A stretch of DNA of 64,000 nt. Origin: Synechococcales cyanobacterium C42_A2020_086. GTDB taxonomy: Bacteria > Cyanobacteriota > Cyanobacteriia > Elainellales > Elainellaceae. This document shows positions 15,570 to 55,798 of this stretch, one piece after another. Position numbers and translations under genes: made by a program. Numbering within the stretch: the first letter of the stretch is position 1; every line of letters begins with the position of its first letter. The stretch is taken from assembly GCA_015272325.1 (NCBI GenBank), contig JACYLU010000002.1, positions 186,001-250,000 of the forward strand. The letters are read 5' to 3'. The notes below the pieces were generated by a model. It worked only from the letters and a program-made list of their open reading frames with translations, did no database searches and was not told where the DNA came from.

Positions 15570-15785
15570 TAAGGAGTACCTCCCGCAGCCGTGCAGCGGC
15601 TCTCCACTGTCAAGGGTGCTGATCAGCAGAATTTGATGGAATATATTGATGAAATATACCAAAGAAATATAAGTCATCAAAAATATAGTCATCAATCTGC
15701 TGCATCTTCCCCCGAGCCGCACCTTATCTACACTCAGCGTTTCACCTGGTTTGCTGCACCTTTTTCTCCGTTGCAACGAAACGCC

Positions 15786-16154
15786 ATGAACAAACATATT
15801 TTAATCATTGACGACGAGCCTGATATCCGCGAGGCAACGCAGATGTGCTTGGAAATTGCTCGAGGCTGGAAAGTCACGACTGCTGGCTCAAGCCGTGAGG
15901 GGCTAGAAAAAGCCATGCTAGAGCAGCCAGACGCCGTGCTGCTAGACGTGATGATGCCCGATACCGATGGGTTAACAACCTTTGAACAGCTCCGCGCCAA
16001 TCCTGTCACGCAGCACATCCCGGTGATTTTGCTCACGGCTAAAGCTCAGCCTGATGATCGTCGCTGTTTTGCCAAGCTGAACGTCGCGGCGGTAATCACC
16101 AAGCCCTATGATCCCCTGACCTTAGCCGACCAAATTGCGGATGTTCTGGGGTAG
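15786..16154 (+). CDS. rfpC: Single-domain CheY-like response regulator RfpC
   Basis: A 122-residue lone receiver: IIDDEPD, phospho-Asp in VLLDVMMPDTDG, and LTAK/TKPYDP. In FaRLiP, RfpC is thought to carry phosphate from RfpA to RfpB. The ATG at 15786 begins exactly at the receiver (MNKHILIIDDE) but has no good ribosome site. The frame is open back to a GTG at 15591 with aaggag at 15571-15576, so an N-terminal extension of 65 residues is possible, though its sequence looks unstructured. A close paralog stands alone at 34615-34989. Confidence 0.9.
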   Translation: MNKHILIIDDEPDIREATQMCLEIARGWKVTTAGSSREGLEKAMLEQPDAVLLDVMMPDTDGLTTFEQLRANPVTQHIPVILLTAKAQPDDRRCFAKLNVAAVITKPYDPLTLADQIADVLG

Positions 16155-26076: not shown

Positions 26077-26586
26077 TTAGTCTTCAGGTTCGGGGCTGCT
26101 AGATTCCGGACTACGCCAAAATTCTTGCAGCGAGGCATCATCCACTAGATAGGCGGTGTCTCCGTCCCGTATGGCTCGTTTCCCCAAACGCGGAAAAACA
26201 CCTACATCAAAGCGAACTTTCTCGCCACCAACTAGATAGACGAGATCCTCCTGAAAGGGATTGCGCAGATGGTGTGGCGGTTGGGGAATCCCAAACCCCA
26301 TGAAATCTCCTGGCTCCACATCGTATTCCTGGTCACCAATTTCGGCAACCCCTCGCCCCGAAAGGATGTAAATCCACTCCTCCTCGTTGTGGTGAGCGTG
26401 GTAGATAAACGACTCCTTGCCTGGAGGAATTCGCATCAGAGACACCCCAATGCGTTGCAACCCAACTGCGTCTCCTAGAGCACGGAAATACAAGGCTGAC
26501 TCAGGATTCAGCGGATGATGAAATTCATTTTCAGCCATCGCCTGAATATCAGACTGCTTGAGCAGGGGGTGCTGTTGTTCTGCCAT
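26077..26586 (-). CDS. Cupin-domain protein
   Basis: A 169-residue single-cupin protein. The ATG at 26586 has a gaggtgg ribosome site just upstream; a GTG three codons earlier would overlap that site. Cupin motif 1 is HAHHNEEEWIYILSGRG (metal-binding His/His/Glu), motif 2 is EPGDFMGFGIPQPPHHLRN with the second histidine. Likely a small-molecule metal enzyme or sugar-binding protein; substrate unknown. Confidence 0.8.
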   Translation of the reverse strand: MAEQQHPLLKQSDIQAMAENEFHHPLNPESALYFRALGDAVGLQRIGVSLMRIPPGKESFIYHAHHNEEEWIYILSGRGVAEIGDQEYDVEPGDFMGFGIPQPPHHLRNPFQEDLVYLVGGEKVRFDVGVFPRLGKRAIRDGDTAYLVDDASLQEFWRSPESSSPEPED

Positions 26587-26708
26587 GGGATCCACCTCGC
26601 ATCCAGGCTAAAAGGATGCTTCTAGCTTACCGCTGATTCCCGGATGACCGTCCACAAGTGAAAACCCAAGGGAGTAAAATATAAGCTGCTCTCAACTCAC
26701 CTACCGCC

Positions 26709-27392
26709 GTGGATCGCCCGTTTAAGCATCTCAATACCATTACTGCTTTGTTTGTGACGGTACTGCTCATTTCCAACGTCACTTCCACCAAGATCGTCGC
26801 CTTGGGACCGCTGACGTTTGACGGCGGTACGATTCTGTTTCCCCTTAGCTACATCTTTGGCGATATTCTCACCGAGGTGTACGGTTATGCTCGCTCGCGC
26901 CATGTGATTTGGTTGGGGTTTGTCTCGGCATTGCTGATGTCGGTCACATTTATCATTGTAGGAGCACTGCCCCCGGCTCCCGATTGGCCCTATCAGGAGG
27001 CTTACAGCCAAATTTTGGGGTTAACGCCGCGAATTGTGGCCGCCAGTTTAATCGCCTACTTCGCCGGCGGATTTTCGAATTCTTTTGTGCTCGCCAGACT
27101 GAAACTGCAAACTCAAGGGCGCTGGCTGTGGACGCGAACAATTGGCTCGACGCTGATCGGGCAAATTGTGGACACTGGGCTATTTATCCTGATCGCCTTC
27201 ACTGGCGTCGTGCCGAATGCGCTGCTCTGGACGTTAATTGTCTCGAATTACCTGTTTAAGTGTGGGGTAGAAATTCTGTTTACGCCGTTTACTTACTGGA
27301 TCACAGGCTGGTTAAAGCAGCAAGAATGCGAAGATTACTACGACCGAGATACCGACTTTAACCCCTTTCATCTCACGTCGTCGTCTCGCTAG
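26709..27392 (+). CDS. Queuosine-precursor transporter (YhhQ/QPTR family)
   Basis: A 227-residue, six-helix membrane protein. FGDILTEVYGYARSRHVIWLGF, FSNSFVLARLK and the C-terminal YLFKCGVEILFTPFTYWITGWLK are typical of the VUT/YhhQ family, which imports 7-deazaguanine precursors of queuosine. Start GTG at 26709, no strong ribosome site; alternative starts further in would remove the first helix. Confidence 0.85.
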   Translation: MDRPFKHLNTITALFVTVLLISNVTSTKIVALGPLTFDGGTILFPLSYIFGDILTEVYGYARSRHVIWLGFVSALLMSVTFIIVGALPPAPDWPYQEAYSQILGLTPRIVAASLIAYFAGGFSNSFVLARLKLQTQGRWLWTRTIGSTLIGQIVDTGLFILIAFTGVVPNALLWTLIVSNYLFKCGVEILFTPFTYWITGWLKQQECEDYYDRDTDFNPFHLTSSSR

Positions 27393-27429
27393 GAACGAGT
27401 CCGTATTCGTTATGCCCCGTCGGTGGCGG

Positions 27430-29229
27430 CTATCGTAACGCCTGTCTGGCTCTGCGGCTAATACCATCGACCCCTAGGGTGAGCAGCATCAAACAGCCCA
27501 GAGTGACGAGCACACCAGCATAATCAAAGCTGCTGAGCTGCTCGGTGAGGAGGCGACCCAGACCGCCGGCACCCACCAGGCCCACAATCACCGTTTCCCG
27601 CATACACACCTCCCACCGGTAGAGACTGTAGGCGAGAAACCGGGTCAGCGTCAGCGGCAGCACGCCATAGAGCCAGATCAGCACGCCGGGACTGCCCTGC
27701 GCCTTTAGTGCCAGCAGCGGCCGCCGGTCAAGATTTTCGGTGACTTCAGCCATCAAACGACCCAAAATTCCCAGATTGTGAATCCCGAGGGCAATTGCAC
27801 CTGGCAAGATCCCCGGAAATAGCACAAACAAAGCTACTAGCGCCCAGATCGGAGCCGGAATTGCGCGGCAGATGAGTAAAACATTGCGGGTCAGCCCAAA
27901 CCCTAGCCAGGCAGCAACGCGGCGCATCTGTGGCTCTCGCGGTCCACTGAGGATGCCGCCCGGCAAGAAAAAATTGTGCGCTGCCGGAAACGATAGCAGC
28001 ATGCCTCCCAGTCCAGCAATGGCAATCGCCAGAATCGACATGGCCAGGGTTTGCAGCGACAACGTTACGAGCTGATCAGGCGATCCGTTGAGGCGGGGGG
28101 GCAGAGCGGCTCGGGCAACCTCTCCTAGCAGCCGCACAGTGCGCGGAGCTACCAGCTTGCTAAAGTCGGCCTGCACATACCAAAAGCTAAACGGAATCAG
28201 CACCAGAAGCCCCAGTTGCGCGAGGCGGAGGCTGTGTCTCCAGAGCCACCGTTGCAACCAGCTCCAGAGAGAGACAGACTCACGAGTCGCCGGAACAATA
28301 CTCGGAACAACACTCGTTGAAGTTGGAGAAATTGAAGAAATTGGAGCCTGGGTGCTGCGTCGCTTCAGGTTCAGGTCAAGTCGTGTGGGGGAGCCAAGAC
28401 GGTGGCGCAGCAGCGCACTCATCGCATCTACGAGTCCGTTCAGCAGAAACAGAGCATAGAACAGCGTCCAGAGCTGGCTGTAGCGTAAAGACTGCAAGCT
28501 CAGCAGAATCTCGTAGCCTAAACCGCCCGCGCCAATAATTCCCAAAACGGTGGCAGAGCGAATCGAGCATTCGAAGCGGTAGAACGTATAGGATAATAAA
28601 TCTAGAAATGCTTGAGGCAGCAACGTATAGCAAAAAGCAGCGAGCGGCAAAACACCGCTATTGAGTAATGCCTGCAACGGCTGACGTGGCGTTTCATCTA
28701 TAATTTCAGCAAATACTTTTGCAACAATGGCTCCATAGGGAATAGCAATACCCAAAATAGCGACCAGCGGATCAAGTCCAAAAATATTGACAAAGAACAA
28801 TCCCCAAATTAATTCGTGAATAGCGCGGGGGATAACTAGTAGTGCCCGCGTGCCGTTGATCAGGACATGCACTTTGGTTTGCTGCCGCGGCCACACCGAC
28901 TGCCACCACACCTCCGCCGTCAGCACCCCTCCCACTAGACCGGCTAACACACTCAGCAGGGTGCCGCAGCAGGCATAGGCGAGGGTAGTGAGGGTGGCTC
29001 GTCCGGTAAGCTGCAAAAACTCGGGGCTGAGATCGGGCTGTAGGCTCGCTTGCAGGAAGCTCCAGAGCTGAGGAATGCCGCCCGGATTGAACAACGCCTG
29101 CCGAAACAGCCCTGTACCCAGCAGCGATAGCAGAACCGCTCCGCTTGCCGCCAACAACCAGCGCCGTTGCGGGGTCCAAAAGGCTGGACGCGGTATTTCG
29201 GCTCTCCCATCCAAAGCCACCTGCTTCAC
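27430..29229 (-). CDS. phnE: Phosphonate/phosphite ABC transporter permease, two PhnE units fused
   Basis: A 599-residue membrane protein made of two permease units in tandem. Each carries the EAA-type loop and a conserved YxxYRxExxxRxxTVLGxxGAGGLGYE-like block: FYRFECSIRSATVLGIIGAG in the first half and LYRWEVCMRETVIVGLVGAG in the second. The GTG at 29229 overlaps the phnC stop (GTGA), so the two are translationally coupled. Most PhnE proteins are single units, so this fusion supplies both halves of the membrane pore. No C-P lyase genes are seen, so phosphonate, phosphite or phosphate-ester uptake cannot be told apart. Confidence 0.9.
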   Translation of the reverse strand: MKQVALDGRAEIPRPAFWTPQRRWLLAASGAVLLSLLGTGLFRQALFNPGGIPQLWSFLQASLQPDLSPEFLQLTGRATLTTLAYACCGTLLSVLAGLVGGVLTAEVWWQSVWPRQQTKVHVLINGTRALLVIPRAIHELIWGLFFVNIFGLDPLVAILGIAIPYGAIVAKVFAEIIDETPRQPLQALLNSGVLPLAAFCYTLLPQAFLDLLSYTFYRFECSIRSATVLGIIGAGGLGYEILLSLQSLRYSQLWTLFYALFLLNGLVDAMSALLRHRLGSPTRLDLNLKRRSTQAPISSISPTSTSVVPSIVPATRESVSLWSWLQRWLWRHSLRLAQLGLLVLIPFSFWYVQADFSKLVAPRTVRLLGEVARAALPPRLNGSPDQLVTLSLQTLAMSILAIAIAGLGGMLLSFPAAHNFFLPGGILSGPREPQMRRVAAWLGFGLTRNVLLICRAIPAPIWALVALFVLFPGILPGAIALGIHNLGILGRLMAEVTENLDRRPLLALKAQGSPGVLIWLYGVLPLTLTRFLAYSLYRWEVCMRETVIVGLVGAGGLGRLLTEQLSSFDYAGVLVTLGCLMLLTLGVDGISRRARQALR

Positions 29230-30047
29230 TCCTGCCCGCGATAGAGATTTGCCATTTGCTCGGGCGTAATCGTGTCCGCCGGCCCATCGAAGTGAATCCG
29301 ACCCGCTTTCAGCCCCACAATTCGGTCGCAGTAGCGACGAGCCAACTCTTCTAAATGCAAAGTCACCACTAGCGTTTTGCCACCCTCCTGCACTAGCTCG
29401 CACAACAGCGCCATCACCTCATGGCTGCGCTCTGGATCAAGACTAGCAACGGGTTCATCTGCCAGAATGACTAGCGGATCTTGCACCAACACCCGCGCAA
29501 TGGCTACTCGCTGCTGCTGCCCGCCGGATAGCTGATCGGTGCGAGCATAGAGTTTCTCAGGAATGCCCACCCGCTGTAGAGCTTGAGCTGCCGTTTCGAC
29601 TTGCTGCGGCACCAGCAACGACAAAACCGCTCGCCAGATCGGCCAGCGCCCCAATTGCCCAGCATTGACATTATGAATAACCGCCAAGGAATCTACGAGG
29701 TGAAACTGCTGGTAAATGGTACCAATCTGCCGCTGTACGCGCCGCAGCCGTGCTCCCGAGAGGCGTCCCAGATTCTGCCCCAAAGCCCACACATCCCCTT
29801 CACTAGGAGTGAGCGTACCGTTTAAAAGGCGCAGCAATGTGCTTTTACCAGCCCCGCTTGCCCCCACAATGGCCACCCGTTCGCCAGGATAAATCTGGAG
29901 ATTTAGCCGATCTAGCACCAAGTGGTGCCCAAAGCGATGGCTGACCTGCCGTAGTTCAAACAGGGGCAGCGCGGATTTTGAGTCAGCAGTCGCGTTCGTT
30001 GTCGCCGGTTCAGGATGGCTGCGCCCTGCTCGGTGTCTTCGGGTCAT
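29226..30047 (-). CDS. phnC: Phosphonate/phosphite ABC transporter ATPase PhnC
   Basis: A 273-residue ABC ATPase. Walker A GASGAGKSTLLRLL, Q-loop IGTIYQQFHLVDSL, signature LSGGQQQRVAIARVL, Walker B LVILADEPVASLD, and the switch histidine in LVVTLHLEEL. An N-terminal ~25-residue extension is unusual; an internal start cannot be excluded. It lies five bases after phnD and overlaps phnE by four bases. Confidence 0.92.
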   Translation of the reverse strand: MTRRHRAGRSHPEPATTNATADSKSALPLFELRQVSHRFGHHLVLDRLNLQIYPGERVAIVGASGAGKSTLLRLLNGTLTPSEGDVWALGQNLGRLSGARLRRVQRQIGTIYQQFHLVDSLAVIHNVNAGQLGRWPIWRAVLSLLVPQQVETAAQALQRVGIPEKLYARTDQLSGGQQQRVAIARVLVQDPLVILADEPVASLDPERSHEVMALLCELVQEGGKTLVVTLHLEELARRYCDRIVGLKAGRIHFDGPADTITPEQMANLYRGQE

Positions 30048-30052
30048 ACGAG

Positions 30053-30973
30053 CTACTGAATTTTGCCGATCTGCCGACCGATCTGCTCAATTTGCGAATA
30101 ATTGGAGTTTTGCGTTTCGATGAACCGTCCTGCTCCAAACAACTCTAAGATCTCTCTCTGCTCAGGTACTGCTGGATCGAGCTTCAGCAGCGCGGACTTC
30201 ACCTTGTCTACAAAATCCTCGCCATAACGCTCTTTCACCTGTGGGTTGATCACCCAGTGATAATCATAGTAAGCCGGCGTGCGCCAGATGACCGCTACTT
30301 TGTTCAGGTCCACCTCACCGGCTTCGCTGCGCTTTTTCCAGACCTGCTCATTCAGCACCCCAACCTCGTAGGTGCCTGCCTCAACGAGCTTGATTGTGGC
30401 ATCATGATTTTGCGAAAACCCGACTTCGCCCTTGAAATCCTGCAGCGTCACCCCGGCTTGCTCTAGAAAATACTGCGGCATCAGTCGCCCCGAGGTTGAG
30501 GACTCACTGCCAAAGGTAAAGGTGCGCCCCTTCAAGGCTTGCAAGCCATTGATATCGTTAAACGGCTGTAGCCCCGAGGCAGTGTTAGCAATGAACACGC
30601 TGTGGAAGTCGGCGTCAATATCGCGCTGGGCAATGGCTTCAGCTCCTGGCACCTGCAAGCGGGCCTGCACCCCCGTTAGCCCCCCAAACCATACCATGTC
30701 TAAGTCTCCCACCTTGAAGGCAGTGACAGCAGCTGTGTAGTCTGTGACCGGCTTGTACTCCACCGGCACCCCTAGCTCCTGGCTCAAGTAGTCAGCGAGT
30801 TTACCATACAGCCGCTGTAGCTTCTCCGGGTCTTGGTCGGGAATGGCTCCGGTGACAAACGGCTGAACAGCCGCAGAGTCTCCAGAGGAAGAAGTCGATG
30901 GATTGGGACTAGGAGCGCAGGCAGCCAACGGCAGGAGTAGGGACAGTAGAATCGGAACAAAGCTTCTTTTCAT
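30053..30973 (-). CDS. phnD: Phosphonate/phosphite substrate-binding lipoprotein PhnD
   Basis: A 306-residue periplasmic binding protein. The lipobox is LAAC after a hydrophobic leader (MKRSFVPILLSLLLPLAAC); the ATG at 30973 gives this signal, while an earlier GTG-type start adds 12 residues. Ser/Pro linker, then YKPVTDYTAAVTAFKVGDLDMVWFGGLT, typical of PhnD/PtxB proteins, and GEVGFSQNHDATIKLVEAGTYEVGVLNE. First gene of phnD-phnC-phnE. Confidence 0.92.
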   Translation of the reverse strand: MKRSFVPILLSLLLPLAACAPSPNPSTSSSGDSAAVQPFVTGAIPDQDPEKLQRLYGKLADYLSQELGVPVEYKPVTDYTAAVTAFKVGDLDMVWFGGLTGVQARLQVPGAEAIAQRDIDADFHSVFIANTASGLQPFNDINGLQALKGRTFTFGSESSTSGRLMPQYFLEQAGVTLQDFKGEVGFSQNHDATIKLVEAGTYEVGVLNEQVWKKRSEAGEVDLNKVAVIWRTPAYYDYHWVINPQVKERYGEDFVDKVKSALLKLDPAVPEQREILELFGAGRFIETQNSNYSQIEQIGRQIGKIQ

Positions 30974-31156
30974 CGCGTTTAGCATCCTGACGCAGGAAAG
31001 AACGGGCAATCACTCGCAAGTCATTGTAATCCAGAAATCAGTCATCCCAGGTTAGCTTCCTGCGAGCAGGTTAAGCCAATGGGGGGAGGTACGCTAGACC
31101 TAAATTTAGGACAATATAGAGGTGTTGGTTTAGTTTAGTAAAAATCAGAAACCGCT

Positions 31157-31345
31157 ATGAAACTCTTGCGCATTGTTCTGGCTATTCTAATTCCTCCACT
31201 GGGCGTGTTTTTGACGTTTGGTTTAGGAACCACCTTCTTAATTAACTTGCTGCTGACATTGCTCGGATGGCTACCAGGCAGTATCCACGCGGTGTGGGCG
31301 ATTGTGAAGCGCGAAGAGCAGCTCAACCAGCAGGCTAAACTATGA
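31157..31345 (+). CDS. Pmp3/YqaE (UPF0057) small membrane protein
   Basis: A 62-residue protein with two hydrophobic helices, the first containing ILIPPLGVFLTFGLG, the second LINLLLTLLGWLPGSIHAVW, exactly the Pmp3 pattern (two helices with IPP and a conserved W-x-PG-x-x-HA). Members protect membrane potential under salt and cold stress in yeast and plants; the bacterial role is little known. Confidence 0.9.
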   Translation: MKLLRIVLAILIPPLGVFLTFGLGTTFLINLLLTLLGWLPGSIHAVWAIVKREEQLNQQAKL

Positions 31346-31567
31346 AAGCGTCCAGCTTGAAAAGCGTCTAGCTCGGTTTCAGGTTAGCGTGTTGGGTGGT
31401 AGAAATATCCTTCAGGCTGAGCAACTTTGGGTGGGTCAATTGCAATCCATCCAAAATTTCTGTGTTTGCAAGTCAATTGACTATCTATATGACTAGCCGA
31501 GCGAATTTTGCCGGCATAGGTGCGGCTTGACACAAATAGTTGCTAAGAAATTTAAAGAGCTGAAAAG

Positions 31568-31600
31568 CAAAAAAGATAGGAGAGATCTACTCCCCTATCC
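31568..31600 (-). terminator. Terminator for the minus-strand gene at 31634-31996
   Basis: On the minus strand, GATAGGGGAG pairs with CTCCTATC (small internal loop) and is followed by six T (31569-31574 complement). It lies 34 bases after that gene's stop. Confidence 0.7.
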
Positions 31601-31633
31601 TTTGTAGCATCACCATCCAATGTTTAAGCTCAA

Positions 31634-31996
31634 TTAGATAATACCGGTGCCTTTACCGCGACTGTCGTGATCGGCGGTTAATTCGCCATCTTTATCAGTA
31701 TCGTTGACTTCGCGCATCTCTTGAGCACGCTCGGCTGCCAAGGCTTCTTCTTTCTCCCGCAGATCACCCGGTTCCTCAATATACATCTCTGGCTCAATCG
31801 CAAAGTTGTTGATCAGCCCTTCTTTATCCACAGTGTATCCACCTGACGTGTCAAGGCTTTCGTCTTCAGGCTGATGTGGAAGCTGCTTGAAGTTCTCCCC
31901 TTCCCGCTCTTTGCGCGCAGCGGTTTCAGCCGGAATAATATGAGGGTCATAGTTATCTGCAGCAACTTGCTTGGCTACATCTTCTCGATTGCTCAT
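31634..31996 (-). CDS. Acidic, disordered hypothetical protein
   Basis: A 120-residue, highly charged protein (many Glu, Asp, Lys) with no hydrophobic segment; the C-terminus is NDTDKDGELTADHDSRGKGT, with a weak EF-hand-like DTDKDGELT. Likely largely disordered. It lies among small proteins of stress type (Pmp3, CsbD), which suggests a stress role; no family recognised. Confidence 0.7.
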   Translation of the reverse strand: MSNREDVAKQVAADNYDPHIIPAETAARKEREGENFKQLPHQPEDESLDTSGGYTVDKEGLINNFAIEPEMYIEEPGDLREKEEALAAERAQEMREVNDTDKDGELTADHDSRGKGTGII

Positions 31997-32304
31997 GATG
32001 ATTATGTCCTACTATTCTTAAATTGGACTAAACCCATCATCTTACAGCCATGCAGCGAGTGCTTCTGCCATCAGGTAGATCTAGAATTTCAGGTTTCCGC
32101 CGATCGCTATTAAGTTTTTATTTCCCAAGAGTCTTATTCCCATTTTCTAGGGAATCTCTTTACCGTTCCATTGCTCAAACGTTGAATATAGTTAAATAAC
32201 TAAATCCCTACAAAAAACCTGGATGTTTCCATCCAGGCATTCCCCCAGCAAGAGTTGATACATTAGGTTTGCTTACTAATCACTCTGCAAACCAGTTCAT
32301 TGAA
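31997..32304. other. Spacer with CsbD terminator
   Basis: No gene seen. It holds the promoter side of the minus-strand acidic protein and the terminator of the CsbD gene at 32212-32237. Confidence 0.5.
32212..32237 (-). terminator. Rho-independent terminator of the CsbD gene
   Basis: Minus strand: CCTGGATG, loop GAAA, CATCCAGG, then six T. A perfect eight-base stem with a stable tetraloop. Confidence 0.85.
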
Positions 32305-32487
32305 CTAGTCAAGCGCTTTCTTGACTTCGTCCTTGGCATCTTCGGTTGCATGTCGCACATTGGCTTCAGCTTGCTTAGCCTTGCCCTCTGCCTTTTGCTC
32401 TGGATCGCCCGTGATGTTGCCTAGCGCTTCTTGAGCTTTACCTTCGATATTTTTGCCGGTTGCTTTTGCTCTATCTTCAGTGCTCAT
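32305..32487 (-). CDS. CsbD-family stress protein
   Basis: A 60-residue charged helical protein: MSTEDRAKATGKNIEGKAQE, ALGNITGDPEQKAEGKAKQA, then a Lys/Glu-rich end. The GNITGDPEQKAEGKAKQ block is the CsbD signature. General-stress protein of unknown mechanism. The ATG at 32487 is favoured by the family start and a gagg upstream. Confidence 0.92.
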   Translation of the reverse strand: MSTEDRAKATGKNIEGKAQEALGNITGDPEQKAEGKAKQAEANVRHATEDAKDEVKKALD

Positions 32488-32960
32488 AAGAACCTCGTTT
32501 TTGGTTATTGAACCTTCAATACGTTCCACCATATCAATCTATCCGGCTTGGCAACTCTATCGACGGTGGGATTCGTTGCTCTACCTCTGTATAGAGCATG
32601 GAATCATATAGAATGACAAAAAATAATGAAAAGGCCATTATCATCTAATACGACATAGTTTTTTGATACACTTTGAAAATATAAAATGAATTACCAATTA
32701 ATAAAAAATAACATCGCCGCACATATAAACTACTCCAATCAACTCCTACGAACAGCTTAGTATGTGCTCACCGGCATTAACCTTTGCCAAGCATTAACCT
32801 TTGCCAGGATAGTTCAAAGCCGTTATCCTATAGCTTGTATGGCTTGGGCAAGAGCGGCGGATAGAGGTGAACGACTAGTTCGCTGCCTATAATGCGTGTC
32901 TACGGTGCTAGATAGGGGAGCAGCAATGAACAGGCAGGTAAAGAGCGGGATGCGGCAAGG
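32488..32960. other. AT-rich spacer with 17-base-period tandem repeat
   Basis: No gene seen. Divergent promoters for the flanking genes are expected. GCATTAACCTTTGCCA occurs twice (32774-32789 and 32791-32806), one base apart. Confidence 0.5.
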
Positions 32961-33512
32961 ATGGACTGTATGACGGTTCTGACCAGACGCCTATCGGTTC
33001 CCGAGCTGAGTCATCGCATTTTAGAAATGGCGAAGACTGGGGTTTACCGCGAGTCTGTATTTGAAGCGCTGCAACCAGTAGCGACCAAAAGGCAGATTCG
33101 CGAAGCCATTGCCCATGCCAAGCGGTTTGGGCTGCACTCGGTCGCGGCACTACGTGATGCAGAACTCGGCACCTACTATCAGCTCGATGCGGTTAAGTAT
33201 GAGTCGCTGAAACACGCTCTCTACTCGCCCGAGCATCTAGGAACGGATGATGAGTTGGTGCAGCGTCTCAGTCAGGCAACTCAATCGCTCCAGCGCATGG
33301 TAGCCGTGGCACGAGGGGTGGCGGGTGTGCTGGGGCTGTTGGCGATTGCCTGTTGGGTTTCTGGATGGCAGGGCACAAGTTTGGGATTAGGCAGTAGTGC
33401 CCTTGGGGCCATCGCAGTCTGGAGTTTGCAGCGTGTTTTGTTGCGGCAAACTTTGTTGGAACAGACAACGTCCTGCCGGTCGGCGAAACAACTAGGTAGA
33501 GAAAAGCTGTAG
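32961..33512 (+). CDS. Hypothetical protein with C-terminal membrane segments
   Basis: A 183-residue protein. Residues 1-100 are helical and soluble (SVPELSHRILEMAKTGVYRE), with a winged-helix-like flavour but no clear domain; residues about 115-155 contain two hydrophobic segments separated by GWQGTSLG. Basic C-terminus. An alternative ATG at 32970 has a slightly better-placed ribosome site. No family recognised. Confidence 0.65.
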   Translation: MDCMTVLTRRLSVPELSHRILEMAKTGVYRESVFEALQPVATKRQIREAIAHAKRFGLHSVAALRDAELGTYYQLDAVKYESLKHALYSPEHLGTDDELVQRLSQATQSLQRMVAVARGVAGVLGLLAIACWVSGWQGTSLGLGSSALGAIAVWSLQRVLLRQTLLEQTTSCRSAKQLGREKL

Positions 33513-33644
33513 AATGGACAACTTTAATCAATTTTAATAATTAATCTCGTTTAATCATTCGGGTTAAGCGCAGCCAACGAAGCGATACGGAACAGTTCAC
33601 GACCATCGAGGCGCACCCGCATCGATTCCAATGCGCCAAGACCG

Positions 33645-34280
33645 CTACAACTCCTGACGAGTCTGCAACGAGGCATCCAAATGAGAGCGATCGCCGAGCC
33701 GTTGCAGCAACGGTCCATAGGTGCTAAACGCCACGACGCTCACCGAAGCCACTCGCATTTCTAGGCGGTCGCGATATCGTCCTAAATCAATACCCAGCAG
33801 ATGACACAGCATAATTCGAATTGTTGTCTTGTGAGACACGACGAGGACATTGCCCTGGGTGAATTTGGCTTCGATTTCAGCAATGATCGGCAGTGCCCGA
33901 CTAGCCACCTGCACCGCCGTTTCCCCTTGCGTAGGGGGATTCCAAGATGGTTCTGTCATCCAGCGCACGTAGTCATCGAGGTGATGCTGCTTGACCCACT
34001 CGGGCGGGTGTCCCTCCCAAAGACCAAAGTTCATCTCCTTCAGCCCGTCTCGCACCTGCATGTCTTGACCGATGGCCTCACACAGCGGTTTTGCCGTGGC
34101 AACCGTTCGCCGCATCGGGCTGACATACACCCCGTCCCAGGTTAGGGCGCTGTAGGCATCGGCAAACGCCGCCGCCATTTGCTGTCCCTCTGGGGTGAGG
34201 TTGGGGTCAAGCACGCCACAATACGCTCCGGTTGAGCTGTAGGGCGTTTCTCCGTGACGCAAAAAATAGAGGGTCAGCAT
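33645..34280 (-). CDS. Histidine phosphatase (phosphoglycerate mutase-like)
   Basis: A 211-residue enzyme of the histidine phosphatase superfamily: LRHGET with the phosphorylated His, the arginine motif YVSPMRRTVATAKPL, MNFGLWEGHPPEWV, and the second histidine in VVSHKTTIRIMLCHLLG. Substrate unknown; similar cyanobacterial proteins are annotated as cofactor-independent mutases or broad phosphatases. The ATG at 34280 starts right at the beta strand before LRHGE; the upstream frame extension is ignored. Confidence 0.88.
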   Translation of the reverse strand: MLTLYFLRHGETPYSSTGAYCGVLDPNLTPEGQQMAAAFADAYSALTWDGVYVSPMRRTVATAKPLCEAIGQDMQVRDGLKEMNFGLWEGHPPEWVKQHHLDDYVRWMTEPSWNPPTQGETAVQVASRALPIIAEIEAKFTQGNVLVVSHKTTIRIMLCHLLGIDLGRYRDRLEMRVASVSVVAFSTYGPLLQRLGDRSHLDASLQTRQEL

Positions 34281-34614
34281 AGAGAATGAAAGAGAGGTAG
34301 CTGGCAAATCAACTTGTCCAGAACACTGCTGTTATTCTGGCGGCATTCCCATCGCGCTGCAAGCCCTCCCATCGTAGGAATAAGTCGGAATAACAGTAGG
34401 AATAGAGGACAGGACAGAGAATAGAACACAAGGACTGAAAAAAAAGAGCCAGGGTGAAAAGGTGAAATAGCCCCCCATCCCCTCTTCCCCTAGCTCAGTC
34501 GAAATGAGCCATAACGCATGGAGCTTAGCAATTTGTATAGCTCACCTTCAAATCTAGAGTGAGAACATGCAGAAACTGTGGAGATGGTGCGACTGAATTG
34601 CACAGCAATGCATG
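34281..34614. other. Spacer between phosphatase and CheY genes
   Basis: No gene or clear structure seen; a purine-rich stretch at about 34430-34465. Probably holds the promoter of the phosphatase and the 3' end of the regulator cassette. Confidence 0.4.
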
Positions 34615-34989
34615 TCATGAATTCCAGCCCAGGAGATCAGCAATTTGGGCAGGCAATTTCATGGCTTTGAAAGGTTTGATAATGGTTGCCGCGACTCCCT
34701 GATGGGTCAACCGCTGCTCGCTAGTCTGCACCTTAGCGGTCATGAGAATCACCGGGATGGATTGGGTTGTCGGATTGGACTGTAGAGCTTGTAGAGTTGC
34801 GAACCCGTCCATATCCGGCATCATGACATCGAGGAGGATGGCGTCAGGTTGTTCTTGAGCTGCTTTCTCGATGCCTTCTCGACCGGAGGTTGCCGTCGAA
34901 ACCATCCAACCACCTACCGTTTTGAGCGCTAGCTGAGTCACTGCCAACACATCACTGTCGTCATCAATGATCAAAATTCGTTTGGTCAT
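34615..34989 (-). CDS. Lone CheY-like receiver, RfpC paralog
   Basis: A 124-residue receiver: MTKRILIIDDDSDVLAVTQL, phospho-Asp in AILLDVMMPDMDG, LMTAK and IIKPF. It matches RfpC of this window position by position (IIDD-x-D, GW-x-V-x-TA-x-S-x-EG-x-EKA, LLDVMMPD-x-DG, PVIL-x-TAK). The ATG at 34989 begins at the domain, although the frame runs further upstream. Third gene of a cassette ordered like rfpB-rfpA-rfpC, 234 bases after the hybrid kinase. Confidence 0.9.
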   Translation of the reverse strand: MTKRILIIDDDSDVLAVTQLALKTVGGWMVSTATSGREGIEKAAQEQPDAILLDVMMPDMDGFATLQALQSNPTTQSIPVILMTAKVQTSEQRLTHQGVAATIIKPFKAMKLPAQIADLLGWNS

Positions 34990-35223
34990 CCTGGTATATT
35001 GCCAAATTTTATATCTTTGCTGAATATGTATCTTTGTACAGTATCCTTGTACAGGATAAAACGGTATGAAACCCCTCAAAGGTGCAAGTTGCTGAAGCAA
35101 CAAGCAATTAACATTAGTTCCGACACTTATTCACGTTCTTGTAAATTAAAAGGCTTTATTTATATTAATGAATATATTAATGAGCACTGTCCAGACTATC
35201 TATCTTAGACTATCTATTTCAGA

Positions 35224-38200
35224 CTATCTATTACGGTCATCTGTAATCACTCCGTTTTCTTGATCATGGGTAACGCGATTTAGCAGATCAATCACTCTCC
35301 ACTCAAATTCCTGGGGGGTGATGCGTCCTTTGGTCAAGAATAGCGTTTGTCCTAGTCGCAGGCGTTCTCGGTCGGGTTCGCTCAAGTCCTGCGCTGTGTA
35401 CACAACAAGCGGCACTTGGCAAAGTCGATTGTGTTGCCGCAGCCAATTGACAACCGCAAACCCATCGCATTCTGGTAGTCCCAAATCCAGGATCAGCAGG
35501 TCGGGCATCAGCTGCTGACTGAGCCGGATAGCCTCTCGTCCGGTTGCCGCGTGGAAGATTTGCAGCCCGTGCCGAGAAAAAATAGCCAGCATAACATGGG
35601 CCAGATCGAGATCATCTTCGACGACCAGCACCTTGATGATGTGGCGCTGTTTGGCAAGTGCCCGCTCTAGAGATTGGGAAAGCAACTGCTGATTCAGCGG
35701 TTTCACAATCCAATCGCTAACTTCGGGATGAGCTGCCTGCCGATCATCAGGAAGCAAACCGCTAAAAATAATCACAGGAATATTTTGGGTCTCGGAGTAT
35801 TGCTTCAGCAGAGCCAGCGTTTCCCAACCGTCCATGCCAGGCATCATGAGATTGAGTAGTATCACATTGGGGGGATGCTGCCGAGCAAAGTCTACGGCTT
35901 CCTGCCCCGATGCCACCGTGATGACGCGATAACCTTGACGCTCTAGTATCGAGTGAATCACCGTGCGAATTGCAGCATCGTCATCGCAAACTAACACTAG
36001 CGGTGCCGGTCGATTTCTCGGCGGCAGGTCTGACCTTTGGGACACCAGGGATGGTGGTGCCTCCGAGCTAAGGTCTGGGGAAGACTGGTCTGGGCAGGTC
36101 TGCTCAGGAGGGGGGAGTGGCGCAGCGTTGGTTCCTTCCGCACCCGGCAGAACCGGCAGGGTGAAATAGAACGTACTGCCCGTGCCTAGCCGACTCTCCG
36201 CCCAGATCTGCCCGCCGTGATGCTGCAAAATGGTGCGGCAGATTGCCAGACCCAATCCGGTACCTCCTTTTTGCCGCGAGTCAGAAGCATCCACCTGCTG
36301 AAACCGTTCAAATATTGTTTCCAGCTTATCAGCCGGAATGCCTCGTCCCTGATCTTGTACCGAAACCAGAACATAGGGCGAGTCGGGTTCCGCCTCGGGG
36401 ACAGCCTCAGCATCCCCGTGGGGAGGGTCTCGCCTGAGCGTAGCCGACAATTGCACTGTACTGTGGGGCGGCGAGAATTTGATGGCGTTGCTGATCAGAT
36501 TAGTAAGCACTTGCACAATGCGATCCGGATCAGCCCAGACCCAAACTGCCAGCGGTGCGGCTGCCAGCGTCACACTCGAACGAGCTGCCATATCGCACAT
36601 TTCTTCAACTGCCTGAGTCATCAGATCAGCTAAATTGCAGGCTTGCTGGGTCATCGTAATTTTCCCAGATTCGATGCGCTCAATGTCTAAGATGTCGTTG
36701 ATGAGCCGTACTAATCGGTCGGTGCTGCCGGCGGCAATGTTCAGCATCCGCTGGGCTTCTTCGGGCTGAGACTGCAACACGCCGTTTGCCAATAGATCCA
36801 GCGCTCCAGAAATGGAGGTTAATGGCGTCCTCAGCTCATGGCTCACAATAGAGACAAACTCATCTTTGAGGCGTTCAATTTCCCGGCGATCGCTAATATC
36901 TTTGGTAAAGCAATAGTGTCCGCTCATCTGCTGCTGGGAGTCGTAGGCAGTTACCATCACTACCTGTTTATCAAAAAGCGTTCCATCTTTGCGCAATCCA
37001 CGTACTTCTACCTCGGCTTTTCCTTCGCGCAACATCTGCTGATAGGCGGTCTGTAGAGTGTCCAGATCGTCTGGATGCAGGGTTTGCTGCCATTCCATTT
37101 GCAGCAGTTCCTCGGGACTGTAGCCCAGCATTTGGGCATAGGCGGGGTTCACCGTGACGTAGCGCCCTTGGGTGTCGAGCTGAGCAATGCCTTCCACAGC
37201 ACTTTCCAGAGCACGACTCATGGCTCGCAGGTCGGTTTGCGAGCGGATCAGCTCCTGCCGCTGGCGGATTTCCTGTTCTAGCAATTGCGCCTGCGACAAC
37301 GCCACCCCAATCTGATCCGCCAACTGTTGCAGCAGCTCAGTTTCAAAGGAAGTCCACTGGCGTGATCGAGAGCACTGGTGAGCAATCAACAGTCCCCATA
37401 GGGTGTCCCGAATGAAGATCGGCACGACCAGATTAGCCTTCACCGCCAGCCCTTGCAAAAACTCAACATAGCAAGGTTCGATACCCGCCTGCTCGATATC
37501 AGTAATCGCCCCTACCCGTCCTTGGCGATACTGCTCCAGATAGCCTTCTTGAAAGCAGGGATCGACGATATCCTGCCCTAGGGTCGGTGGATATCCGGGA
37601 ACAACCGCCTCTTGCACAACGGTTCCCCAACCGCCATCGGCCGTGAGCTGGAACAGCAGCACTCGGTCGGCTTGTAGCACTCGCTGGACCTCGGTAACCG
37701 TAGTCCGCAGGATCGCGTCGAGCTGCAGCGACTGCCGGATCTTCAGGGTCACTTCGGCAAACAGCTCGGCTCGTCGCTTCTGCTGCTGGAGTTCTTGCTG
37801 CGCTTGACGGCGTTCGCTAATATCGCTGCCAATGCCCAAAAAGCCGGTAATGGTCTGATGTTCATCCCGCAGGGCCGTCACCGACAGCAAAACCGGAAAC
37901 CGGGAGCCGTCTTTGCGAACGTAGGTCCATTCTTGTTCATCGACAATGCCGCGCCGTGCCTTGGCGACAAATGCTTCAAAGCCTGGCTCAATGGAGGTTT
38001 GTAGCTCTTGCGACAGGGCAGCAGCTCGCTGCTCAATCTCCTGCCAATCGTGGATGAGCACGGGCGTGGTTTTGCCGACCACCTCCGCGGCGGTGTATCC
38101 TAGCCACCGTTCGGCCGCCGCATTAAAGGTGCGAATGATGCCGTCCACCGTAGTGGAAATAATGGAGTAATTGGCGCTGTCGAGAATCGCCTGTTGCAGG

Positions 38201-39150
38201 CTCAGGGTGTCTTGCAACCGCTGCTCCACTTGCTTGCGTTGGCTGATGTCGCGAAAATAAACCGATAGCCCGTCTGGAGAGGGATAGGCATGCACTTCAA
38301 ACCACGTTTGCAGCGGCGGGTAAAAGGCTTCAAACTCAACGCTGACCTGCTCTGCCATCGCCTGATGATACTGCTGATAGAACAGGGATCCCACCGCTTC
38401 TGGGAAGGCATCCCAGACCCTTTGCCCCAGCAGGTCCTGCCGCTGGCGTTGCAGCAGCACTTCCGCTTGGTGATTTAGGTAAGTGAAGTGCCAGTCTCGA
38501 TCGAGAGCAAAAAAGGCATCTGTGATGCTTTCCAAAATGTTGGTTACCTGCTGGCGGCTCGCTTCGCTTTCGGCACGGGCACTCTGCTCCTGCTGCAAGA
38601 GCTGGGTGCGGGCTTGTTCCGCCTGCTGGGCAATTTGGGTCAGGTGATGCAAATGGGCGCAGCTTTGCCGCAGCTCAAGCTGAGACACCACCTGACGACT
38701 CAGGACGCGCAATGCCTCGATCTGCTCGGGGCCAAGCTGCCGAGGCACACGGTCGATTACGCAGAGTGTCCCCAGGGCATAGCCGTCTGATGTCACCAAA
38801 GGCGCACCAGCATAGAAGCGAATGTAGGGGTCCCCGGTGACGAGGGGGTTGGTTGCGAAACGATCGTCTAGCCATGTATCTGGCACAATCAGCAACTCCT
38901 GGGGCTGCAGAATGGCATAGGCGCAAAATGCCAAATTGCGGGGAGTTTCCTGCACCGTTAAGCCAACTCGCGCCTTAAACCACTGGCGGCACTCGTCCAC
39001 CAAGCTGACCAGCGCAATCGGCGTATGGCAGATCGAGGCTGCCAAGCGAGCCAAATCGTCGAAGGCGGCTTCGGCCTCTGTGTCCAGAATCGCGAACTGA
39101 CGCAGCGCATTCAGCCGGTCGGATTCGTTGTCAGGAGGGGGAGCATTCAT
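35224..39150 (-). CDS. Hybrid histidine kinase with DXCF cyanobacteriochrome-type GAF domain
   Basis: A 1308-residue hybrid kinase. Order: GAF (15-165), PAS (200-310), PAS (315-448), GAF (462-625), PAS (645-755), HisKA with His771 (VSHELRTP), HATPase (about 870-1000), Pro-rich linker, receiver 1 (1050-1165; Asn1100 replaces the phospho-Asp) and receiver 2 (1172-1295; Asp1222). The second GAF carries DPCF (530-533) and, 28 residues on, EPCY (Cys560), the two-cysteine arrangement of DXCF cyanobacteriochromes such as TePixJ, although Tyr follows the canonical Cys where His is usual. There is no PHY domain. HisKA is very close to that of RfpA. It overlaps the upstream regulator gene by 20 bases. 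Likely a blue/green-type photosensor; bilin binding is unproven. Confidence 0.85.
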   Translation of the reverse strand: MNAPPPDNESDRLNALRQFAILDTEAEAAFDDLARLAASICHTPIALVSLVDECRQWFKARVGLTVQETPRNLAFCAYAILQPQELLIVPDTWLDDRFATNPLVTGDPYIRFYAGAPLVTSDGYALGTLCVIDRVPRQLGPEQIEALRVLSRQVVSQLELRQSCAHLHHLTQIAQQAEQARTQLLQQEQSARAESEASRQQVTNILESITDAFFALDRDWHFTYLNHQAEVLLQRQRQDLLGQRVWDAFPEAVGSLFYQQYHQAMAEQVSVEFEAFYPPLQTWFEVHAYPSPDGLSVYFRDISQRKQVEQRLQDTLSLQQAILDSANYSIISTTVDGIIRTFNAAAERWLGYTAAEVVGKTTPVLIHDWQEIEQRAAALSQELQTSIEPGFEAFVAKARRGIVDEQEWTYVRKDGSRFPVLLSVTALRDEHQTITGFLGIGSDISERRQAQQELQQQKRRAELFAEVTLKIRQSLQLDAILRTTVTEVQRVLQADRVLLFQLTADGGWGTVVQEAVVPGYPPTLGQDIVDPCFQEGYLEQYRQGRVGAITDIEQAGIEPCYVEFLQGLAVKANLVVPIFIRDTLWGLLIAHQCSRSRQWTSFETELLQQLADQIGVALSQAQLLEQEIRQRQELIRSQTDLRAMSRALESAVEGIAQLDTQGRYVTVNPAYAQMLGYSPEELLQMEWQQTLHPDDLDTLQTAYQQMLREGKAEVEVRGLRKDGTLFDKQVVMVTAYDSQQQMSGHYCFTKDISDRREIERLKDEFVSIVSHELRTPLTSISGALDLLANGVLQSQPEEAQRMLNIAAGSTDRLVRLINDILDIERIESGKITMTQQACNLADLMTQAVEEMCDMAARSSVTLAAAPLAVWVWADPDRIVQVLTNLISNAIKFSPPHSTVQLSATLRRDPPHGDAEAVPEAEPDSPYVLVSVQDQGRGIPADKLETIFERFQQVDASDSRQKGGTGLGLAICRTILQHHGGQIWAESRLGTGSTFYFTLPVLPGAEGTNAAPLPPPEQTCPDQSSPDLSSEAPPSLVSQRSDLPPRNRPAPLVLVCDDDAAIRTVIHSILERQGYRVITVASGQEAVDFARQHPPNVILLNLMMPGMDGWETLALLKQYSETQNIPVIIFSGLLPDDRQAAHPEVSDWIVKPLNQQLLSQSLERALAKQRHIIKVLVVEDDLDLAHVMLAIFSRHGLQIFHAATGREAIRLSQQLMPDLLILDLGLPECDGFAVVNWLRQHNRLCQVPLVVYTAQDLSEPDRERLRLGQTLFLTKGRITPQEFEWRVIDLLNRVTHDQENGVITDDRNR

Positions 39151-41602
39151 CCTCGGTTAGGGGGTTACGACGGTTTGCAGGGGGGGTGAGATGGGGGATG
39201 GTATCGACCGGTAGATTCACCGGACCCCAGATGATCCGGTCACCGCCGGCGGCCTTGGCCTGGCTCAGGGCAACATCTGCGGCTCGGTAAACACTCTGGA
39301 GATCGGCACCGGCTGGAGGGCAGAGCACCGCACCAATGCTGCACGTCACCCAAAATGCCTCTGGTGCTGCCGCGAACTCGATCTGTCGTAGGCTGTCTAG
39401 CAGCTCGGTTAACCGTTGGTCCGCTTCCGATTGAGTCAGCCCAGTTAGCCCAATCACAAATTCAGTGCCACCCCAGCGACCCATCACCGCTTCCCCAGGG
39501 AAGGTTTGTCGCAGCAAACGCCCAAACCGAGACAAAACGTGATCGCCTGCCGCATGCCCATACCGATGATTAACCGATTTCAACTGATCTAGATCCAGAA
39601 TGGCAAAGCAGCAGGGCTGCGGCTGCTCCACCTGCAACCAGTGTGTCAGGGCTTGAGTGGATTTACGACGATTAGCGATGCCAGTCAAGGCGTCAATATC
39701 GGCGAGGTGGCGCAGTAAGCGCGATCGCTCCAGGCGGTTGAGAATGCGGGTGATGAATTCGGGGCCAACAATCGGCTTACTAACATAGTCATCAGCACCA
39801 GCCGCAAATACTCGATGCATCGTCTCGGCATTGGCATGGGCAGTTAGCACCAGAATGGGCAACCCACTCCAGTGAGGATCATTGCGCACCACTTGACACA
39901 ACTCAATACCACTCACATGGGGCAGCTCTACATCCAGCACGAGCAGATCCGGCGAGGTGAGGTCCAGCACGTCTAGAAACCGCAGGGGGTCATCCAGCGT
40001 CGTCACCTTGATACCCCAAGGTTCCAGCAAGGTCTGCAGGGCAGCAAGCACCTGCGGATCATCATCTACAGCCAAGATGCGCGTGGCTTCGGTGCGGGTA
40101 TGGTGCAGCACCTGTAGCACAGCATCCACGGCTTGGACAGGAGCCACCGGCGACGCCAAAATCCGCTGACCTCCCATGCGGGTAATCTGGACTCGGTCGA
40201 TCAGCCGATTCTGCGCCGTCAGCACAATCACCGGGACGGGCGGCGTGTAGCTGCTGAATTCTGCCAGCAAGGCCAGAGCGCTAGGAGCGAGGGTCTGTCC
40301 TTGCTTAGAGGTGATCGGCAGATCGAGCAGCACGGCATCGGGGAGGTGATGCGCAATCCGACGGCGAGCAGCAGTAGGGGAAGCCGCAATCTCTGCCCGC
40401 AATCCTCGACTTTCAGCCTCAGCCGCCAAGGTCGCTGCCGTAGCCCGGTCCCCATGAACAATCAACAGCCAAGGTCGCTCGTCTCGGATGGCGACCAGGA
40501 GATCCGGCAGACCTCGATCCATCTGTTGCAGAGTCTGACGCAACTCTCTCACGAGCTGCGAGAGCCGTTGGCGTTGGTTAGAGTTCAGCGACCGCCCTCC
40601 GGCCAGCAGTGGTTCAATGTCCTGCGCTAGTCGCGAGCCTTCTTCCGAGCCAAACATGCCGAGCGATCCGGCTAGCCGATGGGCTTCCTGTTCCGCCTGT
40701 TGCCGCAACTCTTCATTGAGCTGTTCCTGTAGCAACAGCGATGTTGCCTGTTCCACGACCGCCGCCCGCCGCTGCAAACTTTCTTTGGCCTGCCGCCATA
40801 TCTGATTAGCCTCAACTCCCGGCTGAGGCGCCTGAAGTCGTGCCTGTTCCGCGCTATCTGTGGGTTTTGCAGAGCGTTGAGGCTGGGGTTTATCCGGACC
40901 TTTGTCGAGCACCCGTGCCTTTCCTGGATCGGCCGGCTTAAGGCGATAGCCAATGCCGTATACGGTCTCTAGCGGATCGTCGGCAATACCAGCCGCCTTA
41001 AGTTTTTGCCGCAAGCCCTTAACGTGGGAGCGCACCGTTTCTTCGGTAGGCGGATCCTCCAGCGACCACAGGTGATCGATCAGCGCTCCACAGCTGAAAA
41101 TGCGGTGGCGGTTACGCAGAAATAGCTCTAGGAGTCCATACTCTTTGGGAGTCAGATGCAGTGATTGGTTGTTGCAAGTCACTTCGCAGGTGCTGGGATC
41201 AAGCTGGAGGTTACGCCACTGAAGGAGTGGCGGCAGTGCGGTACTGCTGCGCCTCAGTAATGCTCGAATGCGAGCCAGCAATTCTTGCAAATCAAACGGT
41301 TTCGCCATGTAGTCGTCTGCGCCGGCATCCAACCCTGTCACGAGGCTGGTGTGGGTATCTTGGGCGGTTAGCAGCAGGATCGGCGTTTGATTGCCTTGTC
41401 GGCGCAATTGTTGGCAGAGCTGAATGCCGTTCAGTTTGGGCAGCACTACATCTAGCAGAATTAGGTCATAGCTGAAGGATTCGGCCAGGTCCCACCCCAT
41501 TTGACCGTCAGTAGCAACGTCAACCGTGTAGTGCTGCTCGGTCAATGCTTTACTCAATGTATGGACAAGTAGCTCATCGTCTTCAATCAGCAGAATTCTC
41601 AT
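39131..41602 (-). CDS. RfpB-like regulator with degenerate GGDEF domain
   Basis: An 823-residue protein with the architecture of RfpB plus an output domain. Receiver 1 (1-118, Asp51), OmpR-type winged helix (125-225, TPKEYGLLELFLRN ... YGIGYRL), Hpt-like domain (about 270-365, His308 in EAHRLAGSLGMF), receiver-like domain (376-500), receiver (507-625, Asp557) and GGDEF-type domain (630-795). The signature reads GGTEF (711-715), and RYGHAAGDHVL is kept; loss of the metal-binding Asp suggests no diguanylate cyclase activity. First gene of the minus-strand cassette, overlapping the hybrid kinase by 20 bases. Confidence 0.88.
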   Translation of the reverse strand: MRILLIEDDELLVHTLSKALTEQHYTVDVATDGQMGWDLAESFSYDLILLDVVLPKLNGIQLCQQLRRQGNQTPILLLTAQDTHTSLVTGLDAGADDYMAKPFDLQELLARIRALLRRSSTALPPLLQWRNLQLDPSTCEVTCNNQSLHLTPKEYGLLELFLRNRHRIFSCGALIDHLWSLEDPPTEETVRSHVKGLRQKLKAAGIADDPLETVYGIGYRLKPADPGKARVLDKGPDKPQPQRSAKPTDSAEQARLQAPQPGVEANQIWRQAKESLQRRAAVVEQATSLLLQEQLNEELRQQAEQEAHRLAGSLGMFGSEEGSRLAQDIEPLLAGGRSLNSNQRQRLSQLVRELRQTLQQMDRGLPDLLVAIRDERPWLLIVHGDRATAATLAAEAESRGLRAEIAASPTAARRRIAHHLPDAVLLDLPITSKQGQTLAPSALALLAEFSSYTPPVPVIVLTAQNRLIDRVQITRMGGQRILASPVAPVQAVDAVLQVLHHTRTEATRILAVDDDPQVLAALQTLLEPWGIKVTTLDDPLRFLDVLDLTSPDLLVLDVELPHVSGIELCQVVRNDPHWSGLPILVLTAHANAETMHRVFAAGADDYVSKPIVGPEFITRILNRLERSRLLRHLADIDALTGIANRRKSTQALTHWLQVEQPQPCCFAILDLDQLKSVNHRYGHAAGDHVLSRFGRLLRQTFPGEAVMGRWGGTEFVIGLTGLTQSEADQRLTELLDSLRQIEFAAAPEAFWVTCSIGAVLCPPAGADLQSVYRAADVALSQAKAAGGDRIIWGPVNLPVDTIPHLTPPANRRNPLTEDECSPS

Positions 41603-41831: not shown

Positions 41832-42326
41832 ATGTTGAATAAACTGTTGGTCGCCATCGATCATTCCGACCTGAGCTGGATGGTGTTTGATCAAGCCCTA
41901 TCCTTGGCTGTGGCTACAGCCGCATCTTTGCGCGTGCTGCATGTTGTGCCACCCGATGAAGAGACTGTCCATGATCACCCGATCTATTTATCGAGTGCTG
42001 AGGTGAATGTGCCAGGTAGCCACAGCAGCTACGAAGATGCGTTGTTCAGCAGCTATGTCAGCGAAGCTTTGCACGCCGGAGTTCACACAGAGTTCTTTCA
42101 ATATCTGGGTAATCCTGGTCCAATCATCTGCAATTTTGCGCTGGTATGGGAGGCCGATCTAATTGTGATCGGTCGGCGGGGGCAAGTAGGCTTCAAAGAT
42201 CCTCCCTTGGGCAGCGTCAGCAGTTATGTTGTGCATCACGCACCTTGCTCGGTGCATTTGGTGCATGGGTGCCATTCAGTTAAAATCAAAGCCACTCCCG
42301 GAAGACAGGTGCGAGCCGTGTATTAA
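41832..42326 (+). CDS. Universal stress protein (UspA family)
   Basis: A 164-residue Usp: KLLVAIDHSDLSWMVFDQAL, LRVLHVVPPDEE, and the nucleotide-binding end IGRRGQVGFKDPPLGSVSSY with VVHHAPCSV (G-x2-G-x9-GS form). A aaggag-like site precedes the ATG. Divergent from the regulator cassette; the 229-base gap is likely a shared promoter region. Confidence 0.9.
   Translation: MLNKLLVAIDHSDLSWMVFDQALSLAVATAASLRVLHVVPPDEETVHDHPIYLSSAEVNVPGSHSSYEDALFSSYVSEALHAGVHTEFFQYLGNPGPIICNFALVWEADLIVIGRRGQVGFKDPPLGSVSSYVVHHAPCSVHLVHGCHSVKIKATPGRQVRAVY

Positions 42327-51910: not shown

Positions 51911-55798
<3,888 letters not shown>

Follow-up and report, generated by a model that had tools for sequence, protein, structure and literature searches.

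Three neighboring genes on the minus strand of the 64,000-nucleotide stretch analyzed here (the window), from Synechococcales cyanobacterium C42_A2020_086, quite probably encode a light-responsive phosphorelay of the RcaEFC type, built around an exchangeable sensor, counting among several relays of this kind in the genome, and descended separately from the rfpBAC genes of the same window. The first-pass annotation had placed three open reading frames (ORFs) here in the order response regulator (RR), kinase, and CheY, and the ORFs bear this out. They are B', an RcaC-type RR of 823 amino acids (39131..41602); A', a hybrid sensor kinase of 1308 amino acids (35224..39150); and C', a lone CheY of 124 amino acids with a Pfam-predicted receiver (34615..34989). 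The ORF of C' is open from a TTG at 35103, yet homology starts only at the ATG at 34989. The three genes form one compact cassette, in which the B' and A' ORFs share 20 overlapping bases. The layout is that of an RcaC-type relay, with a receiver-winged helix-Hpt-receiver regulator next to a kinase and a lone CheY, and the relay residues are present: His771 in A', and His308, Asp51, and Asp557 in B'. In both the window (41832-42326) and genome G034 (L098:7232-7804), the gene for a universal stress protein is oriented divergently from B', with a possible common promoter region.

B' consists of a receiver (Asp51), a winged helix (residues 146-221; 40940..41167; Pfam Trans_reg_C), an Hpt domain (residues 274-362; 40517..40783; Pfam Hpt), a degenerate receiver, a further receiver (Asp557), and a degenerate GGDEF domain (residues 634-788; 39239..39703). 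The RfpB layout previously assigned to B' was correct as far as the last receiver, but the GGDEF tail had been overlooked; its Pfam profile matched the whole of B' with an E-value of 1.7e-32. Although B' shares this domain, by profile, with active diguanylate cyclases, it carries GGTEF (residue 711) in place of the GG(D/E)EF active site, and has no RxxD at what we take to be the position of the inhibitory site. The degenerate motif ruled out B' as an active diguanylate cyclase, and the tail is predicted not to be catalytic. The motif is likewise noncanonical in the other six regulators of the B' group that have a GGDEF domain (GGGEF in four, AGTEF in one, and GGIEF in one); three of them, from G011, G017, and G033, have an RxxD-like stretch at the presumed inhibitory position.

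The architecture of A' is GAF-PAS-PAS-GAF (bilin type)-PAS-HisKA-HATPase-REC-REC. The first-pass annotation recognized the bilin-type GAF, but missed the N-terminal GAF, the three PAS domains, and the two C-terminal receivers. The HisKA-HATPase unit (residues 762-1000; 36151..36867; Pfam) contains the phospho-acceptor His771. In the first C-terminal receiver (35668..35997; Pfam and pattern search), the acceptor Asp is replaced by Asn (LLNLMMP), as it is, by pattern search, in seven of the ten kinases of the A' lineage, window included; the pattern had no match at this receiver in the remaining three. The second receiver (35326..35631; domain search) keeps its Asp (LILDLGLP). Pfam detected no PHY domain in A', which therefore lacks the GAF-PHY arrangement of the knotless phytochrome of RfpABC; RfpA itself is GAF-PHY-PAS-HisKA-HATPase by Pfam.

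The cyanobacteriochrome-type GAF of A' (residues 477-618; 37297..37722) was recognized by matches to chains of solved structures and by its position in a GAF tree. As annotated, a DPCF motif begins at residue 530 and an EPCY motif at residue 558. Cys532 (37555..37557; motif) is a candidate second bilin ligand, and Cys560 (37471..37473; motif and alignment), which is followed by Tyr561, is the candidate canonical ligand. The two lie 28 residues apart, as in chain 3vv4, which we take to be PixJ and whose DPCF and TECH align with the A' motifs; the GAF does, then, carry both cysteines of a DXCF cyanobacteriochrome, as the first-pass annotation proposed. The structural matches were chain 8k9o (9e-54), 6oap, a dual-sensor kinase (9e-43), RcaE chain 7ckv (1e-41), and 3vv4 (1e-35). 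Chain 8k9o is titled simply "histidine kinase", and we took it to be RcaE since its GAF is nearly identical in sequence to that of 7ckv.

The GAF tree (55 rows) joins the window GAF to its G034 counterpart as a pair (support 100/97); the two are 78% identical, and the G034 domain keeps both cysteines. The window GAF falls in an open set of unnamed DPCF-type GAFs (84/78) and, with RcaE, in a 37-row set (94/87) that includes neither 6oap nor 3vv4, the latter sitting apart on a long branch. The RcaE-like rows have EEVF or a similar motif together with Cys-Leu, whereas the window, G034, G066, and G013 have DPCF together with Cys-Tyr; a Tyr after the canonical Cys also occurs in further GAFs listed. 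The protochromic triad of RcaE, presumably Glu217, Leu249, and Lys261, is absent from A', where the aligned residues are Pro531, Tyr561, and Asn573. Because the DPCF/Cys-Tyr motif is combined with membership in the set that holds RcaE, the A' GAF is, as judged from sequence, DXCF by motif and nearer to RcaE by kinship. CcaS and RcaE are described as having a Leu in place of the His after the Cys (passage in PMC9415938), and typical DXCF domains as having a blue-absorbing dark state and teal-to-orange photoproducts (passage in PMC6628166). The GAF is predicted to absorb blue light in the dark, and A' is probably a blue-light sensor. Elsewhere in the tree, four GAFs with DDCF and Cys-Leu (L226, L229, L231, and L235) group with the one-cysteine, RcaE-like set (94/89) and are possible intermediates between two-cysteine and green/red sensors.

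For comparison, the window carries on its plus strand, outside the cassette, rfpB (10377..12353), rfpA (12581..15514), and rfpC (15591..16154), assigned by Pfam together with the RR, kinase, and CheY trees, respectively. At the family level, the cassette genes are homologous to RfpB/A/C, as had been claimed: B' is 45% identical to RfpB over residues 1-631, and the A' kinase core is 53% identical to that of RfpA. The close match reported between A' and RfpA is real but not specific: in its own genome, A' scored higher against the kinase of another locus, C34 (368 bits), than against RfpA (330), with the C27 kinase (326) close to the latter. Similarly, B' matched the regulators at C20 (607 bits), C34 (564), and C8 (461) before RfpB (458). 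Within RfpA of the window, a Pro/Gln/Arg-rich stretch of about 80 residues follows the GAF; it is much shorter in five other aligned RfpA proteins.

Phylogenies separated the two sets of genes. In the RR tree (53 rows), all nine RfpB rows form one group (100/100) and all eight rows of the B' lineage another (100/99); a joint group was rejected by the AU test (p = 0.005), while the deep placement of RfpB is an open fork. A wider, 12-row set containing B' (95/96) takes in the RRs of L099, L162, and L168. The kinases encoded with these three RRs are also found, with A', in a 10-row set (94/85) of the kinase tree (44 rows, HisKA-HATPase core), in which all 11 RfpA rows form one group (100/97) and a joint RfpA and A' group was rejected as well (AU p = 0.0035). 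On this short core, the A' orthologs group with low support (70/21), against 100/100 in a tree of badly extracted rows. In the CheY tree (45 rows), C' falls outside the group that all ten RfpC rows form (99/96), but a union of the two was not rejected (AU p = 0.062). The cassette as a duplicate of rfpBAC was consequently rejected by the AU tests for RR and kinase, though not for CheY. The RR rows were gathered by likeness to B', so the RR sampling leans toward it. Rows from L161, L164, and L167 were dropped as copies of L084, L150, and L098, respectively. There were nine RfpB rows to 11 rfpA genomes, rfpB being broken in L140 and not seen in L141; the split B' of G034 entered the RR tree as its first half alone, and the kinase of G066 (L091), split between two ORFs, is absent from the kinase core tree.

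Short sequence elements also differ between the two sets. The recognition helix of B' is ETVRSH; all eight B' rows have TVRSH or TIRSH there, and the nine RfpB rows have TVTAH or TITAH apart from a single TVTVH. It is not a clean mark of lineage, since the wider B' set includes TITAH (L162 and L168) and TVTVH (L091). The stretch after the phospho-His of the kinase and the first helix of CheY also differ between the window set and the Rfp set. Because these three elements differ, their sequences suggest that rfpBAC and the window cassette are insulated relays.

An orthologous cassette, either whole or cut by a contig end, was found in six other genomes (G011, G017, G033, G001, G023, and G034) and in record UBA8803. 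We found rfpA in G011, G017, and G033, and did not find it in G001, G023, or G034, the last being 68% complete. A bilin GAF is lacking in six of the seven orthologous kinases elsewhere, including all three from rfpA genomes, G034 being the sole carrier; among orthologous kinases from other genomes of the family that were fully read over the sensor, it is lacking in five of six. In the kinases of G011, G017, G001, G023, and G033, the slot is absent or holds PAS domains, with no bilin GAF; the G011 kinase gene is cut, but downstream of its HisKA. CHASE and PAS domains occur in the kinases from UBA8803, Heron Island J, and L. ectocarpi, joined in the latter two by a GAF; none of the three has a row among the GAFs listed as similar to that of the window. 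Conversely, a DPCF GAF is present in the kinases of G013 and G066, where no RfpA was found among the best candidates (at most seven per genome). A bilin-type GAF thus occurs in 4 of the 12 cassettes of the RR group (window, G034, G013, and G066); it may be ancestral and subsequently lost, or it may have been gained repeatedly. We infer that the lineage keeps its C-terminal and output plan and exchanges its sensor, which may be a bilin GAF, a PAS array, or CHASE.

Similar gene sets are not confined to this lineage. In the host genome, further RR, kinase, and CheY sets are found at C8, C27, and C37, and at C34 the RR and kinase are fused, with CheY genes following. Across 117 genomes, B' was matched at E-values of 1e-100 or lower in 69 and RfpA at E-values of 1e-150 or lower in 11, both totals counting the host itself. 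Absences in these surveys and in one for the orthologous cassette carry little weight, because at most the best eight (B'), seven (RfpA), and five (cassette) candidates per genome were scored. By these sequence comparisons, the cassette belongs to a large, widespread family of cyanobacterial relays whose sensors are often swapped. Three of the host's other proteins are noted here. At C37 (L044:6470-10279), a 1270-residue protein consisting of receiver, winged helix, PAS, DPCF/QPCY GAF, PAS, HisKA, HATPase, and receiver unites a sensor and a DNA-binding regulator in a single chain. The fusion at C34 (L042:6250-10668), of 1473 residues, joins an RcaC-type regulator to PAS domains and a histidine kinase; two CheY genes come after it. 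At C6 (L048:5969-8680), a 904-residue protein shares 65% identity with residues 28-275 of RfpA and has a PHY-like stretch and a second cyanobacteriochrome-type GAF with DRHF.

The first-pass annotation held that the cassette arose by duplication of rfpBAC, its phytochrome having been exchanged for a DXCF GAF. The shared gene order and RR core, the proximity to FaRLiP, the identities of B' and the A' core to their Rfp counterparts, and the unrejected joint CheY group are all consistent with such an origin. We nevertheless regard it as very improbable: several such relays occur in the genome, with paralogs equally or more similar to the cassette proteins than are the Rfp proteins; orthologs occur where rfpA was not detected; and the RR and kinase form separate groups, their union with the Rfp groups being rejected under the models used. 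The trees placed the window RR and kinase outside the Rfp groups, and the window proteins with cassettes of other genomes. The five fully read orthologous kinases of the family without a bilin GAF argue against this origin as well. These same kinases, and the Tyr that follows the canonical Cys in place of His or Leu, are what might be expected if the GAF had lost its bilin, or bound one without effect, and A' sensed otherwise through its PAS domains and N-terminal GAF. This account is unlikely, if the least so of the alternatives; G034 keeps the GAF with both cysteines, and other listed GAFs also have Tyr at this position.

The annotation had further suggested that the host pairs far-red sensing with a short-wavelength relay that opposes or modulates it. 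A blue/teal, two-cysteine relay beside FaRLiP, in a lineage whose slot otherwise often holds PAS or CHASE domains, would then be a second color input, gating or tuning the acclimation to far-red light. The nearest precedent is DpxA, a second sensor beside RcaE in the control of chromatic acclimation (commentary in PMC4937213, seen as an extract). The cassette does lie in the same genome as the FaRLiP set, 9,588 bases beyond its psaF2, and over 116 other genomes it co-occurred with rfpA (3 of 10 rfpA genomes versus 3 of 106 others; Fisher p = 0.008). Within the family, however, the association was not clear (3/8 with rfpA versus 3/27 without; p = 0.12). The intervening 9.6 kb holds other genes (26077..34307), namely those for a cupin, a Vut_1 transporter, a phosphonate-type ABC transporter, a short ORF with no Pfam match, and a histidine phosphatase. 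The rfp flanks read in G002, G007, G011, G014, G017, G026, G032, G104, and G112, which are of uneven length and in several cases end with the contig, yielded no orthologous cassette (the rfp contig of G033, at 7.6 kb, is too short to judge). Also against the pairing, no bilin GAF is present in the cassettes from G011, G017, and G033, the other rfpA genomes that have one, and the B' recognition helix differs from that of RfpB. L-box-like direct repeats, which we took as TTGTACA-N4-TTGTACA with up to four mismatches, numbered 27 in the window and 25-39 in five single-base shuffles, and were therefore not in excess. In Chlorogloeopsis, the transcripts of most other photoreceptors are reported as unchanged in far-red light (section of PMC6424891). 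Having found no evidence that the cassette opposes or modulates FaRLiP, we consider such a role improbable. No account of the window cassette was found in the parts of the literature covered by one library. Two other genes were noted as well. In G032, a GGDEF-tailed regulator resembling RcaC, split and with no kinase seen adjoining, lies some 12 kb from rfpB (C288; L247:9787-12167). The window itself also encodes a core-membrane linker of the ApcE type with four linker repeats (52394-55798), where apcE2 of the FaRLiP set has two.

Under the preferred reading, that of a separately descended, RcaEFC-type relay, the GAF would bind phycocyanobilin or phycoviolobilin at Cys560, and reversible addition of Cys532 would yield a dark state that absorbs blue light and a photoproduct in the teal-to-orange range. 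Illumination would alter the phosphorylation of His771 in A', and phosphate would reach His308 and Asp51 of B' by way of C' and perhaps also of the second C-terminal receiver. B' would bind its own promoters and control its own regulon. The Asn-bearing first C-terminal receiver and the GGTEF domain would be structural or regulatory rather than catalytic.

On this reading, rfpBAC and the RcaE-type cassettes are two branches of a widespread relay family, with regulator and CheY persisting as sensors change; an RR-kinase-CheY set near FaRLiP need not be part of it. The two-cysteine GAF close to the one-cysteine RcaE group also offers a testable case for the kinship of green/red and DXCF sensors. 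Among known systems (RfpA/B/C and RcaE/F/C are described in extracts of PMC4658448 and PMC4390838), a common photosensory origin has been suggested for CcaSR, RcaEFC, and RfpABC (passage in PMC9415938). With RcaE-RcaF-RcaC the cassette shares a kinase with a cyanobacteriochrome GAF followed by PAS, a lone CheY, and a three-receiver, winged-helix RR (extract of PMC4390838), and among solved structures, the RcaE GAF matches that of A' best. However, RcaE lacks the DXCF cysteine and A' the protochromic triad, B' has a GGDEF-like tail in addition, and A' a larger number of sensor domains plus two receivers; in the RR tree, an RcaE-type cassette (L159) is placed elsewhere than B'. RfpA-RfpB-RfpC, which controls FaRLiP, has gene order, RR core architecture, and broad family in common with the cassette, but differs in its PHY-containing knotless phytochrome, its separate RR and kinase groups, its recognition helix, and its lack of GGDEF. 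Finally, like the DXCF cyanobacteriochromes (DpxA and, presumably, PixJ, compared here as 3vv4), A' has a DPCF motif and a canonical Cys 28 residues on, but in the tree its GAF sits close to the RcaE group and away from 3vv4, and Tyr follows its canonical Cys.
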